A stretch of 64,000 bases of DNA from Coriobacteriia bacterium (GTDB lineage Bacteria > Actinomycetota > Coriobacteriia > Anaerosomatales > Anaerosomataceae): NCBI GenBank assembly GCA_030652115.1, contig JAUSBK010000003.1, forward strand, positions 1 through 64,000. The letters are read 5' to 3'. Of the stretch, positions 2,125 through 9,922 are shown piece by piece. Within the stretch, counting starts at the first letter, position 1. Each line of letters opens with the position of its first letter. Below the pieces are notes generated by a model that saw only the letters and a list, made by a program, of their open reading frames with translations, had not been told where the DNA came from and made no database searches. A program made the position numbers and the translations under genes.

Positions 2125-2508
2125 ATGGGACTGGACACGTATGCCTCGCGCTCGCCGGACGACGTCGTGCTCACCGAGGATGACGAACGTGCGTTCCTAA
2201 ACGCTGGCATCGAACTCTGTGGCGGGATCTTCAGCGGTGGCGACGCCTCGTTCCGCGGCAAGGTCTACATCGACGTCGTGCTCGAGGTCACCGATGTCTT
2301 CCTCAACACGGAATGGCTGCCGCCCGAGACGGTGCGCGAGATGGCCGCCAAGCTCAATGCCGTCTCGCCCGAAGAGCTGGCCGAGATCAACGACATCGCA
2401 CGCACACGGCCCAAAGACACGCCGACCAACGCCGACGAGATGATGAGCCTGCAGTGCTTCTTCACGATATGTGCCAACCGCGGATTGGGGCTTATCGGCT
2501 GGTTCTGA
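2125..2508 (+). CDS. Conserved hypothetical protein (MGLDTYAS start)
   Basis: A 127-residue soluble, acidic protein beginning MGLDTYAS, an opening I have seen on small uncharacterised bacterial proteins. No signal peptide, membrane segment or catalytic motif is visible. The second of two adjacent ATG codons is preferred because GAGGAG (2113-2118) then lies 6 nt upstream; the first ATG (2122) would leave only 3 nt. The gene converges on the radical SAM operon and the two stop regions overlap by 17 bp. Function unknown. Confidence 0.6.
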   Translation: MGLDTYASRSPDDVVLTEDDERAFLNAGIELCGGIFSGGDASFRGKVYIDVVLEVTDVFLNTEWLPPETVREMAAKLNAVSPEELAEINDIARTRPKDTPTNADEMMSLQCFFTICANRGLGLIGWF

Positions 2509-3796
2509 CGCCGCCGTAGAGACCCCATGCCTCGGCGCACATCGCACCCGAGAACCACGATCCCGACGTCGTAAGGCGCCACGCACCGCCCTCATCTGCT
2601 CGCTCCAGCAAGCCCACCGCTTCGAGTTCCCCGCAAAACGCGAGTGCGGCATCGTCGAGGCGGTCGGACGCGACCTCACCGGCCATCAGGCACGCCACCA
2701 GCGGTCGTGCGCACTCCTCGGCGGGCGTATAGGTGCCCCCGCCGGAAAGCGGCACAGCGCCAGCCGCGTCCCCGTAGTCGTCCAGCTCGAGGTGCCGGTA
2801 GAAGTACGGCCCCACCACGCCGTCTGCCGATGAGCCCACCGCCAGCAGGTCCTCGCCTCGCACCGCATGCCGTGAGTACAGGTTGGCGTCGGCGGGCCGC
2901 GCGAAGTGCGTGACGTGGTTGCGCGGGAAGCCCAGCTCCCCCAGCAGCGCGGCTCCCTCGGCAAGCAGCACGAAATCCTCGCGCAGGTGCGGCTCGTCGC
3001 GCTCCAGCAGCCCGTGCTGCGCCATGAAGCGAGCGTTGTGCGGTCCTGCGTTGAGGTGGTAGAGCGAGACGCCGTGGATGCCCGCGCCGGCCAGCAGCGT
3101 GATGTCCTCGCGAAGCATCGCGGCGCTCTGGCCAGGCAAGCCGTAAAGCAGGTCCGCCGAGACGACCCCGCCGCGCTCCAAACACGCGGCGATGCGCTCC
3201 AGCACCTCGTGCGGCTGCTTGCGGCGGCCGAGGATCCGTCGCAGCTGTGGCTGCAGCGACTGCACGCCCACGTGTATGCGCGTGAAGCCGAGTGTGCCGA
3301 GGAACTCGAGGTTCGCCTCATCGAGCAGTCGCGAGGTGGTCTCCAGCGCCCACTCGGTCTCTCCGTGCGTGCCGAGCGAGTCGCGCAGCGCACTCGTTAT
3401 GCGCTCGAACGCCGCGGCGCCGATGGCGAGCGGCGTGCCGCCCCCGAAGTGCACTGTGGTGACGGGTCGCTCGGCAAGGCCCGGAAGCGCCGCGAAGGCC
3501 GCGATTTCCCCGGTCAGCGTCTGGACGTAGCGATCGACGGTTTCACGCGAACCGCGCGGCGCGATCGTGGCGTGGCAGTCGCAAAACGGGCATCGCGTCT
3601 CGCAAAACGGGATGTGCACGTAGACCGAGATCGCGCCGCTCCTGCGCGCACAGACGCTCGCGATCTCATCCCACGCGCGGTCGGGGCTGTCGGGCAGCCC
3701 ACGGGTCGCCCATCTCGGCAGCGGGAGGTGCGCGTCGGCAGGATAGCGTTCGCTTGCACGCGCCCAGGCGACGAGGGCGCCGGTGGCCGCGCTCAC
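2492..3796 (-). CDS. HemW-like radical SAM protein, last gene of the peptide-maturation operon
   Basis: The protein (434 aa) carries the HemW-family signature YVHIPFCxxxCxFC with Cys 65, 69, 72 and a further Cys 74. A GGGTP loop follows near residue 118. The C-terminal third looks like the HemW-type winged-helix region. HemW relatives are often haem chaperones or methyltransferase-like radical SAM proteins, not coproporphyrinogen oxidases, so the symbol hemN is not warranted. The GTG start overlaps the preceding stop as GTGA, so it is translationally coupled to the TIM-barrel gene upstream. Its position in a radical SAM operon suggests a role in peptide modification or haem/cofactor delivery. 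Confidence 0.8.
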   Translation of the reverse strand: MSAATGALVAWARASERYPADAHLPLPRWATRGLPDSPDRAWDEIASVCARRSGAISVYVHIPFCETRCPFCDCHATIAPRGSRETVDRYVQTLTGEIAAFAALPGLAERPVTTVHFGGGTPLAIGAAAFERITSALRDSLGTHGETEWALETTSRLLDEANLEFLGTLGFTRIHVGVQSLQPQLRRILGRRKQPHEVLERIAACLERGGVVSADLLYGLPGQSAAMLREDITLLAGAGIHGVSLYHLNAGPHNARFMAQHGLLERDEPHLREDFVLLAEGAALLGELGFPRNHVTHFARPADANLYSRHAVRGEDLLAVGSSADGVVGPYFYRHLELDDYGDAAGAVPLSGGGTYTPAEECARPLVACLMAGEVASDRLDDAALAFCGELEAVGLLERADEGGAWRLTTSGSWFSGAMCAEAWGLYGGVRTSR

Positions 3797-4719
3797 GCCT
3801 CGGCCCGCCCGCTACTTGCGAAGTACTCGCGGCAGACCTCGCAGGTCGCGCACGTCTTCGCACAGGTCAGCGTGTGTGCGTAGAAGTCGCGCGTGATCGC
3901 CGGCACGCATGGCGCCGTGGCTGGGCCGCCGCCTATCTCGGCCAGCTCGAGCGGCGTGCGGTTCACGTAGGCGGATAGTACGCGCAGGTAGTGCACAGGG
4001 TCGGCAAGCGTCACGCGTCCGTCCAGTTTCACCTCGTCGTAGAGGCCGTCGAACAGATCGAGATGCTGCGGAAGCACCCACGCGCCGGTGAGCGCCAGCC
4101 ATGGCTCACGTTCCAGCAGTCCGGCGCACAGCGACGCCGGCATCGGATGCGACGAGTTCATCTCGAAGAAGTGCTGCGTGCGATAGACGCAGCCCGGCAG
4201 ACACCCCTCGTTCACCATGAGCCGCAGCGCCCCCGGCCATGCCTCGCGCAGCGCGCGCAGCGCAGGCAGGTCGCGCATCACACCATCGCCCGGCGTGAGC
4301 GAGTCGAAGACGCCTTCCAGGTAGACGACCTGCGCCGGCGTGCGGACGTCGAGCAGCGTGGACGCGGCGAGTCGCAGTCCGGGGAACGCCTCGCGCAGCA
4401 ACCGCGCGAGTCCCGCACTCCCCACGACCGCCTCGGCCACACCGCGCTCCTCGACAAGCCCGCGCAGTCCGGGCTCGATCGCGGCGAACACTTCGGCGAC
4501 CGAACCCACGTGCACGACCGGGTTCAGCAACACCGACTTCCCCACCGCATCGCCGCTGAGAAACGCCTGCAGGTGCTCCGCAGGCTGTGACGGGCGTCCG
4601 GAGCCGATGGGGCTCGCGGGCATCGGGAAGTAGACGCTCGCCATGTTCGGCGACACGAGTTCGGCCACGCGGAACCAGAAGTCCGGAGGCTGGTCGATGT
4701 AGGGCAGCACCCAGCGCAT
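3793..4719 (-). CDS. TIM-barrel-like protein with two Cys clusters (U32-peptidase-like), radical SAM operon
   Basis: This 308-residue protein has no N-terminal CxxxCxxC radical SAM motif. It has NEGCLPGC (Cys 173, 177) followed by R and TQHF, which resembles the Cys pattern of U32-peptidase/UbiU-type barrels. The C-terminus holds Cys 286, 290, 293 and 296 (CxxxCxxCxxC), a plausible iron-sulfur site. The ATG start at 4719 overlaps the previous stop (TGATG), and its own stop overlaps the next GTG, so it is firmly inside the operon. A substrate-carrier, hydroxylase-like or auxiliary Fe-S role in peptide maturation is possible; the family call is tentative. Confidence 0.6.
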   Translation of the reverse strand: MRWVLPYIDQPPDFWFRVAELVSPNMASVYFPMPASPIGSGRPSQPAEHLQAFLSGDAVGKSVLLNPVVHVGSVAEVFAAIEPGLRGLVEERGVAEAVVGSAGLARLLREAFPGLRLAASTLLDVRTPAQVVYLEGVFDSLTPGDGVMRDLPALRALREAWPGALRLMVNEGCLPGCVYRTQHFFEMNSSHPMPASLCAGLLEREPWLALTGAWVLPQHLDLFDGLYDEVKLDGRVTLADPVHYLRVLSAYVNRTPLELAEIGGGPATAPCVPAITRDFYAHTLTCAKTCATCEVCREYFASSGRAEA

Positions 4720-5654
4720 CACGCGTCCCCGGCCATCCGGCGCGCCCGACAACCGCCCGTACAACGCCCGGCAGGGCGAAACGCGCACGTCGCGCACTCC
4801 TCGAAGAGTTCTGGCAGTCCGTCGCCCAGTGCCTCGACGAAGGCGGTGATCAGCTCGTCGCGGGTGGCGCATCGGTCGAGCGGCATCCGCGCGATCGATG
4901 CAAGCGCGTAGCATGCGATCGTGTCGCCCTCGGGCAGCACATCGATGATCGGCCCGCAGCGCGTGCCCACGCTCTTGATGACCTCCGGATGAGTCACCGC
5001 GAACTCATCGGAGAACATGCACGGCGTGATGCCGCAGTCGAAGCCGACGCTGACCCCGCGCGCCTCTGCCTGCGCCACGAACGCCTCGATCGTCACACCC
5101 ACCGCGCGCAGGTCACTCGTCACTACGCTGGTGTTCGCACCGCCTGCGATAGGGTGCGCCACGCCCACTCGCACACTGCGCCGCAAGCCATGTCGGTCGA
5201 CGCGTTCCAGGAGGAAGCCCATATCACTCTCCGCCGAGACAAGCGTCATACCGATCTCGACGCGATCTCGCAACGCATCGCAAACACGCTCCTGCGCAGC
5301 AACGAGCGAGTCACTATCCACGCCCGGCACCGCCGAGTTGAGGTAGAGCGTCAGGTCCCGCGGCGATAGCGACGCTAGATACACAAGCGCATCATCGCTC
5401 ACGAGGCCGCCGGTCATCACCGTGAGCGCGAAGCCGCGCTCACGCGCACGCTCCGCCAGCGCGATGAACGCCGGGTGCAACGTCGGCTCGCCACCGAGAA
5501 GCCGCGCATCGGGAATGTCCGAGCGCTCCAGGAAGTCGAGCGCGCGCTCAAAGGTCTCCGCAGGCATGTCGAGCGGCTTGAGAACACGCTCCTCGGCCGC
5601 AAAACAAAAGCTGCAGTCACGCTCACACCGGCGGGTGATAGAGAGGTTCGCCAC
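4719..5654 (-). CDS. Radical SAM/SPASM-type protein (fourth of operon)
   Basis: A compact 311-residue enzyme with the AdoMet-binding cluster at Cys 10, 14 and 17 (CERDCSFC) right at the N-terminus, followed by LLGGEPTLHP (the GGE AdoMet-contact motif). The C-terminal Cys-rich part (CGPIID..., CATCAF..., CTGGC) matches a SPASM or twitch domain binding auxiliary [4Fe-4S] clusters. It lacks the extra N-terminal domain present in two sister enzymes. The GTG start at 5654 is one base after the upstream stop. Such enzymes install thioether or C-C bonds in ribosomal peptides; the substrate here is presumably the Cys-rich peptide at 9474-9905. Confidence 0.8.
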   Translation of the reverse strand: MANLSITRRCERDCSFCFAAEERVLKPLDMPAETFERALDFLERSDIPDARLLGGEPTLHPAFIALAERARERGFALTVMTGGLVSDDALVYLASLSPRDLTLYLNSAVPGVDSDSLVAAQERVCDALRDRVEIGMTLVSAESDMGFLLERVDRHGLRRSVRVGVAHPIAGGANTSVVTSDLRAVGVTIEAFVAQAEARGVSVGFDCGITPCMFSDEFAVTHPEVIKSVGTRCGPIIDVLPEGDTIACYALASIARMPLDRCATRDELITAFVEALGDGLPELFEECATCAFRPAGRCTGGCRARRMAGDA

Positions 5655-5655
5655 C

Positions 5656-7047
5656 TCACACGACCTTCGCCCACGAGTGCAGCCTGTCGTCGGCGTTGGA
5701 GGCGAGGCCCGCGGCGGCCATCTCGTTCACCAGCAGTGCGGCGGCCTCCTCTGTTGCATCAATGCCCAGCAGCAGCCGACTCGCCGTGATCAGGCGGATC
5801 GCCCGGCATCGCTCGTCGTAAAACCGGCTGCAGCGCGGCGGGGTCTGCTCCACTCGGCAGCCGCCTGCACACGTGTAGCGGCAGAAGCAGCGTTCGCAGC
5901 GCGGCTTCCGCTCCAGCTTCTTGTCGATCTTCGCGATCTGCCGCTCATCGACGTGCACGACGCCCGCCTCATCCACGTTGCCGAACGACAGTTCCAGTCC
6001 ACGCGAACGCCAACGCTCGGGCTCGAGATAGCACCCGGTGATGGCGCCGTCCGGCCACAGCATGAGCGAGCCCGTGCCGAGCGGACACGACGTCGAACGG
6101 GGACCCTCGAGTTCGGACGGCCCGTGTACCACGCGAACGCCGTGCTCGGCACCGATCGACTCGGCCTGCATGAAGTTCAGCGCGAACGCGTACGGGTCAG
6201 GCGCGTAGAGTCCCGCCTCGGCCGAACCGGGTGTCTCGGCCAGCGTCTCGAACGCGAGCACGCTGATGTCGAACTCCGTGCAGAACCGCTCGGCAAGACG
6301 TGGCAATGCCTCAACCGAGTGATCCGTGACGCACATGCGCAGACACAGTTCGCACGGGTAGCGGCTCAGCTGGCGGATCGTCTCGGCGACCTCGGCGTAC
6401 GTCCCACGTCCATCGCGGTGTCGACGCAGGCCGTTGTGGAGCGCCTCGTCGCCGTCCAGGGAAACGACCACGGAGTCTATCTCATCGCCGAGAAACTTCA
6501 CGGCTTCGGGGCTGCAGACGCCGTTCGTGGTGAGCTCGAACCACGGCGTGACGTGCGCCTTCGCGCATGCGCGCCGCGTGTAGGCGACGATCGCCTCGAC
6601 CGAGCGCCGCGCGACAAGCGGCTCGCCCCCGAAGAAGTGGACACGCATGACTGACTCGCGGTCGCGAACCGTGTGGGCCAGTACGCGATCGATCAGTGGA
6701 TAGGCGAGTTGGGGATCGAGTACCGTGAGCGACGCGTCGGGGCAGCCGAAGTCGCAGTGAACGCAACTGATGTTGCAGGCGCGTGTTGGCATGATCACGA
6801 GCTTGCCGACATCCTGTGGGCGGTACCGGGACGCCTGGGCTGGCGCGATCGTCAGCGTCTGCCACAGCTCAAGCGACTCGAGTGATGGCGCAACGTGACC
6901 AGGTTCGCAGCATTGCGCGAGTTCGCCAAGCGCCGTGTGGTTCACCACGGCCACACTCCACGTGGCAGGCGCGAAGACGAGCCAGCGGTCCGCGAGCGGG
7001 AGCACATACATCTCAGTGGGGTCTACATGCGGTGGCCGCACGCTCAT
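5656..7047 (-). CDS. Radical SAM/SPASM peptide maturase with N-terminal domain (third of operon)
   Basis: The 463-residue protein has the radical SAM cluster at Cys 91, 95 and 98 (CNISCVHC) and HFFGGEPL downstream. A C-terminal SPASM domain has several Cys including CERCFCRYTCAGGC. Residues 1-85 form an extra domain (WLVFAP, then VVNHTA) of the kind that precedes the barrel in peptide-modifying SPASM enzymes and may bind the leader peptide. The ATG at 7047 is preferred because it overlaps the preceding stop (ATGA); a longer frame to 7137 exists but has no context support. Part of the seven-gene peptide operon. Confidence 0.85.
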   Translation of the reverse strand: MSVRPPHVDPTEMYVLPLADRWLVFAPATWSVAVVNHTALGELAQCCEPGHVAPSLESLELWQTLTIAPAQASRYRPQDVGKLVIMPTRACNISCVHCDFGCPDASLTVLDPQLAYPLIDRVLAHTVRDRESVMRVHFFGGEPLVARRSVEAIVAYTRRACAKAHVTPWFELTTNGVCSPEAVKFLGDEIDSVVVSLDGDEALHNGLRRHRDGRGTYAEVAETIRQLSRYPCELCLRMCVTDHSVEALPRLAERFCTEFDISVLAFETLAETPGSAEAGLYAPDPYAFALNFMQAESIGAEHGVRVVHGPSELEGPRSTSCPLGTGSLMLWPDGAITGCYLEPERWRSRGLELSFGNVDEAGVVHVDERQIAKIDKKLERKPRCERCFCRYTCAGGCRVEQTPPRCSRFYDERCRAIRLITASRLLLGIDATEEAAALLVNEMAAAGLASNADDRLHSWAKVV

Positions 7048-8126
7048 ACGCTGACCACCTCCATCGCGAGTAGCCGCTGTGCACGGCAGCGGAAGGTGTC
7101 GCGAAGGTGCCGTGCGGCGCCCGTATCCAGTGCGCACACGTCAGGGCATCCGCGCGAGCAGGAGTGTGCGATGGGACATCCCGTGCATTCATCGGGCACG
7201 AGGCCGCACGTTTCGCTCAGAGCCCGGATCCGCTCTGCGTCCAGCACGAAGCGCCCGGACGGGCCGATGCCGCCGACGCGCACGCCGCGCTCGTGCGCGT
7301 CTTGGGCCCTCGACTCCACGAAGCATCCCGTGGCGAAGTCGCCCGGTGCCAGATTGACCACGTGACGAAGTACGTTGCAGTACGGGCCGTGCGGCTCGTC
7401 GGGCCGGAGCATCGACGTCGTCACCACGGTGCCGCGTTCGGTGCCGTAGCGCCTGGCATCAAGAAAGCCCTCCACGAACGCTGGGGCGTCCTCGGCCAGA
7501 AGGCCCGACATCCCTGACGCGTTCTCATAGACGGGCTCGAGGCGTATCTCGGTGGGACCGAGCACGTCGATGGCGTAGTCGATCACTTCCTGTTGCCGCC
7601 GCAGCGTCGCCGCGGTGACCGTTGCGCGCACGTGGAAGCGCGCACCACACTCCCGCAAGATCGACGCACTCCGCTCGACGTCCGTCGAGGTCGCACCGCC
7701 ACCGCGACGCGGGCGTTGCGCGTCCTGGACATCGGGAGGCCCATCACACGACAGGCCGAGAAGATCGAACTCCGCCGCGGCCCATCGCATGGTTGCCTCG
7801 GCCAGTACGCCATTGGTGGCAACGTAAGTGGTGAGTGGCACCCCGGCGCTCTCGGTCTGCACGCGCACGATTCCGAGAACGCGTGCCGCATCATCCGAGT
7901 CAAGCAGTGGCTCACCGCCGCCGTGCAAGACGAGCGTCATGGGCAGGCCGCGCTCGTTGCACGACGCGGCGACGATCCGGGCTGCGTCGGCCACCGCTTC
8001 GTTCGAGAGCACGGGCTCCTGCACCGCCGAAGCCCCCGAATGGCAGTAGCGGCAAGCAAGGTTGCAGCGGTTGTTGAGGAACAGGGTCAGACACTCCGGC
8101 TGGAACGCAACGTCGGCACCCATCAT
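7044..8126 (-). CDS. Radical SAM/SPASM protein (second of operon)
   Basis: This 360-residue protein has Cys 21, 25 and 28 (CNLACRYC) as radical SAM cluster ligands, then LHGGGEPL. The C-terminal SPASM region includes CTGCPIAHSCSRGCPDVC. It lacks the N-terminal accessory domain of its neighbours. Two adjacent ATG codons overlap the upstream stop as ATGA; 8126 is used here. The paralogous enzymes in this operon are clearly diverged from each other in sequence, so they probably perform different steps or act on different residues of the same peptide. Confidence 0.82.
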   Translation of the reverse strand: MMGADVAFQPECLTLFLNNRCNLACRYCHSGASAVQEPVLSNEAVADAARIVAASCNERGLPMTLVLHGGGEPLLDSDDAARVLGIVRVQTESAGVPLTTYVATNGVLAEATMRWAAAEFDLLGLSCDGPPDVQDAQRPRRGGGATSTDVERSASILRECGARFHVRATVTAATLRRQQEVIDYAIDVLGPTEIRLEPVYENASGMSGLLAEDAPAFVEGFLDARRYGTERGTVVTTSMLRPDEPHGPYCNVLRHVVNLAPGDFATGCFVESRAQDAHERGVRVGGIGPSGRFVLDAERIRALSETCGLVPDECTGCPIAHSCSRGCPDVCALDTGAARHLRDTFRCRAQRLLAMEVVSV

Positions 8127-9445
8127 GCGCCGCCAAGTGCAGATTCGAGCATGTCCAGCACGAGCGCACGCGTGATTTCGCAGCGCCCGGAGGTCTCCCC
8201 TGCGACCCTTCCTCCGTCGAACGCCTTGGCCGCACAGTCGCCGGCACATGCGAACACACAGAAACACTCGGCGCAGCCGGCGCGACGCTGCGCGGCGCCA
8301 TCGCGGATAGCAGCGATCCTGGCGCCATCCGTGTGGATAGCCGAGCCGTCCGCATCGACATGACCGTAGAAGAACTCCTTGGACAGCGGGTCATCGGGGT
8401 GCAAGACCTCATAGCAGCATGTGAGGTCGCCGTCGGGCGTGACACCGAATGTCGGATCAGGATAGGAGCAGAATGCGGGGACTACACCGGCAGGCCGCGC
8501 ACCCGAGTAGGTGAGTCGACGGCCGTATCGCTGTGCGACGGTACTAGCTGTCCGAAAGGCCTCGACGAACGCGTGTGGTTCGGGCGCGTCCAGACCCGAG
8601 GCACTCGCGCGGCCCCGCAGATAGAGCGGCTCGGCCCGAATGATGCTCGCCCGCGAGTGCTCGCACAGGAATTCGACACTCTCGGCCAGAAGCGGGAGGG
8701 CCTCGGCGGTCACAGTCATCCTGATCGAGTACGGGAGCCCGTGTTTCTCGAAGATGCGCACCGAACCGAGAACGGTCCCCAATGAGGGCTCTGTGCCAGG
8801 TGTCACCCGGCATCGGTCGTGCACCTCAGGCAAGCCGTCGATCGAGACAGTGGCGCTTCGCATGTGCTGTGCAATGAACGCTGCCTGCGGTTCTGAGTAG
8901 AAGCCGTTCGTGCCGATGTTCATCAGGACATTCACGTTCGCCTCGGCGGCGGTTGCTTCAATGAACTCCACGGCACGCGTGAACAAGGGCCAGCGCGCAC
9001 CGACGTCCCCGCCGTGGAACGCCACAGTGAGATCGCGGCCGAGCCGAACCGCATTGCCCAGGGCGAAACGGACAGACGCCTCGAGCACCGGCCAGTCGAT
9101 GTCGCTTCCCGTGCCGCCCTCGCAGTAGCAGTACGTGCAGCGCAGCGTGCACTTGTGTGTGAGGAAGAGCGTGACGGCCGTGGGCTCGAAGGAATCCGGC
9201 CACGTGGGGTTGAATTTCTTGAGCGCCTTGGGCGACACGGCCGTCAGGCGATCCAACATCATCGGCTCGACACCTATCGCATGCGCCGCGTCGGCGTCCC
9301 CGGCCAATGCTTCACGAAAACACACGGCGTACGCGTCGTTGACCTCCATGATGAGGCCCTGAAGCGGTGCGTACAGCAACGGCAGACCCGAGCCGCGCGC
9401 GATGAGGAAGGTCGTCTCACCGAGCGGCTGCCAGGAGATACTCAT
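8123..9445 (-). CDS. Radical SAM/SPASM peptide maturase (first enzyme of operon)
   Basis: The 440-residue enzyme has Cys 99, 103 and 106 (CTLRCTYC) and FHGGD downstream as the GGE-like motif. A SPASM domain has Cys spread over the last 110 residues (CAECFCVFACAGDC). The N-terminal 85 residues (LLYAPLQG, then EVNDAYA) resemble the extra domain of the enzyme at 5656-7047. The ATG follows GGAGG at good spacing and lies only 28 bp after the peptide gene's stop, so the substrate and the enzymes are likely co-transcribed. Family knowledge points to thioether or other crosslinks on Cys-rich peptides. Confidence 0.85.
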   Translation of the reverse strand: MSISWQPLGETTFLIARGSGLPLLYAPLQGLIMEVNDAYAVCFREALAGDADAAHAIGVEPMMLDRLTAVSPKALKKFNPTWPDSFEPTAVTLFLTHKCTLRCTYCYCEGGTGSDIDWPVLEASVRFALGNAVRLGRDLTVAFHGGDVGARWPLFTRAVEFIEATAAEANVNVLMNIGTNGFYSEPQAAFIAQHMRSATVSIDGLPEVHDRCRVTPGTEPSLGTVLGSVRIFEKHGLPYSIRMTVTAEALPLLAESVEFLCEHSRASIIRAEPLYLRGRASASGLDAPEPHAFVEAFRTASTVAQRYGRRLTYSGARPAGVVPAFCSYPDPTFGVTPDGDLTCCYEVLHPDDPLSKEFFYGHVDADGSAIHTDGARIAAIRDGAAQRRAGCAECFCVFACAGDCAAKAFDGGRVAGETSGRCEITRALVLDMLESALGGA

Positions 9446-9473
9446 GCGGCCTCCGTCGGGCGCGTCTCAATCC

Positions 9474-9905
9474 TCAGCTCGGGTACCAGTAGTGACCGCC
9501 GGGGGTGCTCACCGAGTTGCACGTGCAGTTACCCACGCAGGCGCAACCTTCAGTGTCGCACGTGCAGATGATGCCGATGGTGTCGTCGTCCTCGTCCGGC
9601 TCCTCGGGTTCGTCCTCGTCCGGCTCCTCAGGTTCGTCGGGTTCCTCCGCAGTTGGCCCTTCCTCTTCGACGGGCTCAACTGGCTCGGCCGGCTCGATGG
9701 GCTCCTCTTCGGCCGGTTCGACAGGCTCGTCATCCTTGCACCCGCCGACGATGCTCAGCGCTGCGACAGCCCCCACACTCGCCACAGTCGCCTTGACGAA
9801 CTTGCGCCGGCTCATCTTCGAACCGCCAGGCATGTCGATCTGCGCGATACGAAACACCTTCGGCTCTTCAGAGTCTGCGGCGACGTCCTTGGGATCCCCG
9901 TCCAT
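9474..9905 (-). CDS. Tat/lipoprotein-signal precursor with six Cys as three CxC pairs (putative radical-SAM-modified peptide)
   Basis: The 143-residue product has four zones. Residues 1-30 are a leader (KVFRIAQIDMPGG). Residues 32-38 are a twin-arginine motif SRRKFVK, followed by a hydrophobic stretch and a lipobox ending at Cys 56. Residues 57-108 are almost only Pro, Glu, Asp, Ala and Val. Residues 109-143 hold Cys 114, 116, 121, 123, 127 and 129 (CxC-x4-CxC-x3-CxC) and end GGHYWYPS. The ATG at 9905 is chosen because GGAGG lies 5-6 nt upstream; the ATG at 9920 has no such site. Four radical SAM/SPASM genes follow directly. I infer a lipid-anchored, Tat-exported peptide modified in the cytoplasm before export. 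A direct metal-binding role for the CxC pairs remains possible. Confidence 0.8.
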   Translation of the reverse strand: MDGDPKDVAADSEEPKVFRIAQIDMPGGSKMSRRKFVKATVASVGAVAALSIVGGCKDDEPVEPAEEEPIEPAEPVEPVEEEGPTAEEPDEPEEPDEDEPEEPDEDDDTIGIICTCDTEGCACVGNCTCNSVSTPGGHYWYPS

Positions 9906-9922
9906 GTTCCCTCCACCCATGT

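Follow-up and report, generated by a model that had tools for sequence, protein, structure and literature searches.

A predicted radical SAM RiPP operon in a Coriobacteriia bacterium, built around a putative Tat-exported lipoprotein with a repeated CxC tail

The DNA analysed here, which we call the window, is a stretch of 64,000 nucleotides from a Coriobacteriia bacterium of the family Anaerosomataceae (assembly GCA_030652115.1, contig JAUSBK010000003.1, positions 1 to 64,000 of the forward strand), and our subject is an operon on its minus strand at 2492-9905. According to the open reading frame (ORF) list, its seven genes encode a precursor, four radical S-adenosylmethionine (SAM) enzymes (rSAM1 to rSAM4), a U32-fold protein and a HutW/HemN-type radical SAM protein. 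We consider it very probable that they represent a family of ribosomally synthesized and post-translationally modified peptides (RiPPs) in which rSAM1 matures the Cys-rich tail of the precursor. As expected of a RiPP locus, an encoded precursor with a conserved leader and core stands beside modifying enzymes. A reading made earlier from the sequence alone had described a seven-gene radical SAM operon with mostly overlapping junctions, and the ORF coordinates and inspection of the junctions agree with it. The only real gap, of 28 nt, separates the precursor from rSAM1; the downstream junctions all overlap or touch (ATGA overlaps at rSAM1/2 and rSAM2/3, a 1-nt gap at rSAM3/4, TGATG at rSAM4/U32 and GTGA at U32/HutW).

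The sequence-only reading had also held that the operon is dedicated to the CxC tail of its precursor, and had proposed a genome search for such tails beside radical SAM genes. In that search, a DNA pattern of two CTC[DE]xx units and one further Cys was scanned across 84,980 genomes, with neighbouring genes ignored, and gave at least 114 loci. Among the matches listed, 40 encode proteins with C[TS]C[DENQ]x[VI]C[TS]C; an rSAM1 homologue lies in the same piece (≤8 kb) in 30 of these 40, against two weak cases among the 74 others (Fisher 1e-16). Those 74, which have no CTC[DENQ]x[VI] unit, are mostly low-complexity or out-of-frame. Four of the ten exceptions (L051, L053, L059 and L188) do show rSAM1 once the piece is widened, and two (L115 and L147) are orphan precursors. 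Homologous precursors without radical SAM genes had been named as the finding that would speak against the proposal, and the orphans are no such case, as their enzymes lie elsewhere in their genomes. Four of the 40 matches look spurious (L061, L097, L118 and L138). In the opposite direction, 26 of the 398 Coriobacteriia genomes, from 12 of 153 genera, carry an rSAM1 orthologue (E ≤ 1e-90), and in every one of them a CxC-tail ORF lies no more than 1.5 kb from the orthologue; this test is not fully independent because its profile (A3) was partly made from known members. This reverse test added several genomes that the earlier profile search and the pattern-scan picks had missed. Thus, tail and rSAM1 are linked in both directions, which argues that the operon is dedicated to the CxC tail.

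Members were found in Coriobacteriia, Chloroflexi/Anaerolineae, Desulfococcaceae, Bacteroidales, Myxococcales, Clostridia, KSB1, Calditrichaeota (a fragmentary genome) and bacterium UASB270. CxC-tail peptides are a widespread and apparently undescribed family, spanning at least eight bacterial lineages; no description of it was found in the open-licence papers searched. Across 30 precursors, 118 of the 194 intervals from one CxC pair to the next have a spacing of 6; in 82 of those 118, a Val precedes the next unit. This Val lay outside the search pattern; the Thr/Ser and Asp/Glu positions lay partly inside it.

Conservation within the family Anaerosomataceae leads to the same tail. Beyond the window's own genome, the U32-like gene is present in four of 98 relatives, all of this family, with one further fragment. 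These four (L015-L018) carry all seven genes in an order identical to that of the window, with enzymes of 53-86% identity and precursors that can be aligned to the window precursor over the full length (alignment A1). Because the seven genes recur in order in four other genomes, the association of precursor and operon is not due to chance. The system is missing from the rest of the window's own genus. The five family precursors have in common the leader, the twin arginine, a lipobox-type Cys and HYWYP; tail length varies, from three CxC units in the window and L015 to 10-11 units in L016-L018, where they repeat as CTC[DE]xV with a period of 6. Since this expansion is confined to the tail repeats, it appears that the repeats are the functional core. 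The short six-Cys tail noticed earlier is indeed present in the window, but six Cys is the minimum of the family rather than its hallmark. When the precursor profile A1 was run over the 398 genomes, it matched in 128, mostly weakly and to ordinary Tat signals, and only the five full-length proteins were true members; its stronger Cys-tail matches revealed a second precursor type, described below.

From N- to C-terminus, the window precursor reads MDGDPKDVAADSEEPKVFRIAQIDMPGGSKM-SRRKFVKATVASVGAVAALSIVGG-C, an acidic linker, and CTCDTEGCACVGNCTCNSVSTPGGHYWYPS. Its twin-arginine signal, lipobox Cys, acidic linker and three CxC pairs are all as first described (RRKFVK, IVGG-C and CTC-x4-CAC-x3-CTC, respectively). 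The RRKFVK motif is conserved, and residues P15, V17, R33, R34 and F36 are invariant across 15 precursors of the twin-arginine translocation (Tat) type from several phyla. With the Tat model TIGR01409, the window precursor scores 16.6 bits against a cut-off of 16.7, and two relatives score 17.5 and 20.0. The window's own genome has a TatC gene (E 1.5e-49), so that both a twin-arginine signal and a translocase are in place; a pair of TatC genes also lies inside a related clostridial locus, in further support of the export route first proposed. In all five family precursors, a Cys follows the hydrophobic region, as in lipoproteins. Judged from these motifs, the precursor is probably a Tat-exported lipoprotein. 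The NCBIfam precursor models gave no match to the window precursor or to the related and distant precursors tested, in keeping with the earlier remark that the signal, linker and CxC spacing fit no familiar class. The features of the operon are collected in Table 1.

Table 1. Genes of the operon and segments of its precursor, in window coordinates
Feature	Position	Strand	Basis
Precursor lipoprotein, 143 amino acids	9474..9905	-	ORF; orthologues in four genomes of the family (alignment A1); Shine-Dalgarno-like GGAGGG at 9909-9914
Leader segment with conserved EEP-K-V-F motif, proposed maturase recognition site	9813..9905	-	Residues invariant in Tat-type precursors
Putative Tat signal SRRKFVKATVASVGAVAALSIVGG and lipobox Cys56	9738..9812	-	Family alignment; Tat models; TatC in own genome
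CxC tail CTC-DTEG-CAC-VGN-CTC, proposed modified core	9519..9566	-	Nearly constant between window and L015 while linker varies; 10-11 CxC units in L016-L018
C-terminal aromatic motif HYWYPS	9477..9494	-	HYWYP invariant in A1
rSAM1, SPASM radical SAM enzyme with N-terminal RRE-like domain, proposed core maturase	8123..9445	-	PF04055; SPASM Cys; AlphaFold2 model
rSAM2, radical SAM enzyme with C-terminal Cys cluster	7044..8126	-	PF04055; 13 conserved Cys in 12 homologues
rSAM3, SPASM radical SAM enzyme with N-terminal domain	5656..7047	-	PF04055; SPASM Cys invariant in 12 homologues
rSAM4, a short radical SAM enzyme whose C-terminus has a Cys cluster	4719..5654	-	PF04055; 11 conserved Cys in 11 homologues
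U32-fold protein with seven Cys invariant; candidate O2-independent oxidase/hydroxylase acting on the peptide	3793..4719	-	Sub-cut-off PF01136; fold match 5d88; alignment A5
HutW/HemN-type radical SAM protein (CX3CX2CXC), proposed tailoring enzyme	2492..3796	-	TIGR04107, 197 bits vs 400; four Cys invariant in 10 homologues

The count of five radical SAM genes stands, as all five match PF04055 above threshold. Of the four enzymes labelled as SPASM proteins in the sequence-only reading, rSAM1 and rSAM3 have the complete Cys pattern (CX9-15GX4C - CX2CX5CX3C - C, after the radical SAM motif CX3CX2C); rSAM2 and rSAM4 carry conserved C-terminal Cys clusters. In rSAM1, the SPASM residues C326, G339, C344, C391, C394, C400, C404 and C422 are invariant in 18 homologues. 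Its AlphaFold2 model (pLDDT 86.5) has CteB (5wgg, E 1.7e-19) as nearest structure, and the modelled N-terminus, of strands and short helices, resembles a recognition-element (RRE-like) domain. The best or near-best scores of rSAM1-3 are with the PapB, SCIFF-maturase, nif11-maturase and QhpD models, all far under the curated cut-offs: with NF047865 (PapB, cut-off 340), 87.5, 71.8, 99.0 and 31.8 bits for rSAM1 to rSAM4, respectively; with TIGR03974 (SCIFF maturase, cut-off 425), 73.6, 56.2 and 83.1 bits for rSAM1 to rSAM3; and with TIGR03906 (QhpD, cut-off 453), 89 bits for rSAM3 and 66.9 bits for rSAM1. PapB, the SCIFF maturase and QhpD are all enzymes that form thioethers. The product of the last gene had been called HemW-like, a label that we replace: it has a CX3CX2CXC motif, and the nearest model is that of HutW/ChuW (TIGR04107), below its cut-off.

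The protein previously described as a TIM barrel with a Cys cluster does have the Cys cluster, but we have reassigned it as a U32-fold protein. Its PF01136 score is below the gathering threshold of 22.4, both in the window (15.0) and in the L178 homologue (19.0), and a phmmer search of the Protein Data Bank gave nothing credible; fold comparison alone gave a match. The best match of the model (pLDDT 81.9) is the U32 protein 5d88 (E 7.7e-8, Z 17.1 against 12.4 for the next), and the protein is thus predicted to have a U32 fold. Other TIM barrels in the fold listing were generic matches and only 5d88 was kept. Seven Cys are invariant (alignment A5), namely C173-X3-C177-X20-C198 and C286, C290, C293 and C296.

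Across bacteria, the systems come in two builds. Full-set systems have rSAM1, rSAM2, rSAM3 and rSAM4, with the HutW-like gene in most of them and the U32-like gene in about half; they comprise those of the window's family, six Chloroflexota/UASB270 genomes, two Bacteroidales, one Desulfococcaceae and one Myxococcales. In all of these genomes but one, the precursor leader contains P-x-V-[FY] ahead of the twin arginine; a lipobox is frequent and an SH3 domain or WD40 propeller occasional, and the protein closes with a CxC tail and an aromatic end, for example HYWYPN or TYYYPD. One Bacteroidales genome (L179, L180) departs from this pattern, the sole precursor found there being non-Tat and on a contig separate from rSAM2-4. 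Short systems, in Atopobiaceae and relatives and in Clostridia, combine rSAM1 with a lipoprotein, a radical SAM gene of the B12-binding kind and a U32 gene of canonical type (above the PF01136 cut-off). Their precursors have no Tat signal, start with NDR...PKPxIxIIVDGNSVFKPGMKTYFVE and end in CxCxPVH. An aromatic end is present in every full-set genome (counts here and in the next sentence not corrected for ancestry), and ends resembling HYWYPS occur in full-set systems of Chloroflexota, Bacteroidota, Desulfobacterota and Myxococcota. Conversely, no rSAM3 orthologue was found in the 18 rSAM1-only genomes tested, none of which has the aromatic end; the KSB1 genome is an exception, with an aromatic end and no rSAM3 found. 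We also considered the U32 protein as the enzyme of the HYWYP end, and rejected this as a rule since the gene is missing from many genomes having that end.

Several further features accompany these loci. In clostridial short systems, a small Tat-signal protein is encoded upstream of rSAM1; in L186 it has a PqqD-like, leader-binding domain and there are two TatC genes, and L189 has TatC-like genes (all these features together: L186 8954-9352, 9402-10124 and 10111-10860; L187 7137-7580; L189 8802-9224 and 10543-11755). As the clostridial precursors are without a Tat signal, the modified precursor may cross by Tat as a hitchhiker on this small protein. CxC tails are also fused to Tat-exported WD40 beta-propellers (L174 6270-11062, L115, L175, L176, L178, L147 and L155), and one Anaerolineae genome (G402) has four WD40-fused precursors, three in tandem and one away from the enzymes. 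An accessory protein of about 150 amino acids, with an N-terminal RRE/RRD-F motif and no obvious hydrophobic stretch, is kept near rSAM1/rSAM2 in full-set loci outside Coriobacteriia (L177 5596-6066; L184 8987-9448; L178 4703-5200; L181 13282-13752); the one tested had no Pfam match. An extra radical SAM gene, nearest to HxsC and below cut-off, occurs in L016 (5368-6630), L174 (12477-13634), L179 (1139-2146) and L181 (7853-9064) and is absent from the window. Finally, a glucose/sorbosone dehydrogenase (GSDH) lipoprotein gene adjoins the operon in three of the five family genomes, on differing sides (L015 3474-4736; L017 12660-13922; L018 about 3597-4661). This adjacency is not counted as evidence for a redox partner, because GSDH, common in the order with 42 of 61 genomes carrying it, is remote from the operon in the window's genome.

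We propose that the leader (EEPxVFxI) recruits the maturases and is followed in the precursor by the Tat signal, lipobox, spacer and a CxC-repeat tail ending in HYWYP. rSAM1 would bind the leader through its RRE-like domain and form ranthipeptide-like thioethers along the tail, joining the Cys of one unit to a nearby Asp, Glu or Thr. Further modifications, some of them tied to the HYWYP end, would be added by rSAM2-4, the HutW-like protein and the putative U32 oxidase. Crosslinking would be completed in the cytoplasm, and because a stiff, folded product could not pass Sec, it would leave by Tat, to be lipidated on the outer face of the membrane. By analogy with known maturases, we lean towards Cys thioether chemistry on the tail, and a RiPP system of an undescribed family, with this chemistry and export included, is likewise the explanation of the whole operon that we moderately favour. 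Most likely, the product would stay fixed at the surface in a redox, metal or structural role and would not act as a diffusible antibiotic.

Several observations weigh against this scheme. No enzyme attains the curated cut-off of any characterized maturase, so the thioether chemistry is extrapolated. The window tail CTCDTEGCACVGNCTCNSV has no CX3D/E spacing like that of PapA, and the family repeat is CTC[DE]xV; PapB tolerates Cys-Xn-Asp with n = 0-6 (PMC9413430). The lipobox is missing in some distant Tat-type precursors (L087, L105 and L137). About half of the full-set genomes have no U32-like gene, which is hence not essential to the core reaction. Furthermore, many of the relatives are metagenome-assembled genomes.

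Other explanations share parts of the same evidence. The CxC array could be a metal or Fe-S electron-transfer segment with free thiolates, in which case the radical SAM enzymes would modify other residues, such as those of the HYWYP end or the spacer, and Tat would be used because the metal is loaded in the cytoplasm. The many CxC pairs with acidic neighbours would suit such a segment, Tat is the classical route for cofactor-loaded proteins, and the systems rich in extra radical SAM genes have the aromatic end as well. However, rSAM1, which is linked to every CxC tail, resembles makers of Cys thioethers and is present even in systems without the aromatic end, and we regard free thiolates as unlikely. 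The operon might instead be an anaerobic counterpart of tryptophylquinone biogenesis, with thioethers folding the tail and the Trp/Tyr of HYWYP oxidized by the U32 or HutW-like enzyme to a redox cofactor before Tat export. There is a precedent in quinohemoprotein amine dehydrogenase (QHNDH), where Cys-Asp/Glu thioethers and Trp hydroxylation are completed in the cytoplasm before export (PMC7876137), and U32 oxidases hydroxylate without O2 (PMC11574389); the QhpD-like score of rSAM3 and the WD40 propellers fused to some precursors point the same way. Nevertheless, many aromatic-end genomes have no U32-like gene, U32 proteins occur in systems without that end, and KSB1 has the end with no rSAM3 found, which makes this counterpart very unlikely. 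A wider idea, and to us a distinctly unlikely one, is that an O2-independent route of an entirely new category makes the CxC array and aromatic C-terminus into a protein-derived redox device or cofactor, exported by Tat and anchored in the membrane; it would be the first case of a U32-fold enzyme working on a peptide, and five radical SAM enzymes would share one substrate.

Thioether RiPPs are often antibacterial, and the tail is modular and variable in length, as might be expected of a bacteriocin cleaved from its carrier after export and acting on other bacteria like the sactipeptides. Yet the seven-gene operon holds no dedicated ABC transporter or peptidase, and the lipobox, the Tat signal and the SH3 or WD40 fusions of relatives speak for retention; a diffusible product is highly improbable. 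That a Cys-rich lipoprotein merely lies upstream of unrelated radical SAM genes has a probability close to nil. We found no point in favour of such a coincidence, and it is refuted by the two-way linkage of tail and rSAM1 across phyla, beside the conserved operon.

Elsewhere in the window, two 98-bp direct repeats (85-182 and 1527-1624, 99% identical) bracket a Fic/DOC gene at 253-1497 and end in a stretch resembling a tRNA 3' end (GATTCGAATTCC...CACCA). This arrangement suggests an inserted element.

Judged by score, the system does not belong to the SCIFF, PapB or QhpD families; its kind appears to be that of a radical SAM RiPP of an undescribed family. With the SCIFF ranthipeptides (CteA-CteB) it shares a Cys-rich core and a SPASM maturase with an RRE-like N-terminus, CteB being the structural match of rSAM1, but the precursor matches no NCBIfam peptide model and rSAM1 is far under the SCIFF maturase cut-off. 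To our knowledge, SCIFF peptides are not known with a Tat signal, lipobox, period-6 CxC array, aromatic end or five further enzymes. The PapA/PapB (freyrasin-type) system supplies the best NCBIfam model for rSAM1, rSAM2 and rSAM3 and similarly has acidic residues among its Cys, which PapB joins to Asp/Glu (PMC9413430); it differs in the low score of rSAM1, in having CX3D/E in place of CTC[DE]xV, and in that the precursor here is of the Tat type.

We know of no example that unites a maturase leader placed before a Tat signal, a substrate made of CTC units whose number varies, and a peptide operon with a gene for a U32 protein (anaerobic oxidase type). The nearest logic is that of the QHNDH gamma subunit (QhpC/QhpD), in which thioethers are completed in the cytoplasm before export. 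In QHNDH, cytoplasmic Cys-Asp/Glu thioethers are made by QhpD, which needs the leader, and hydroxylation is by a separate enzyme, QhpG (PMC7876137). In contrast to that system, rSAM3 scores far below the QhpD cut-off, QhpC exits by an ABC transporter after leader cleavage, and the QHNDH route uses O2, whereas the operon has a U32 protein and no O2-dependent monooxygenase. The U32 oxidases (UbiU/UbiV, TrhP and RlhA) resemble the window protein in the fold of 5d88, in conserved Cys of Fe-S type and in an anaerobic context. These oxidases are O2-independent hydroxylases with a typical Fe-S motif of CX6CX15CX3C, which the window protein does not have, its Cys being arranged as CX3C-X20-C with a C-terminal CX3CX2CX2C (PMC11574389); their substrates are quinones or RNA, whereas the window U32 gene is linked to a peptide. 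Similarly, HutW/ChuW, HemN and HemW (class C radical SAM proteins) share CX3CX2CXC and the best model with the last gene product, but the operon has no heme genes and this gene is co-conserved with CxC-tail peptides. The CxC-tail operon appears to direct distinct radical enzymes at one short sequence as their shared target, and the family could serve as a model in which to study the passage of proteins with many crosslinks to the cell surface.

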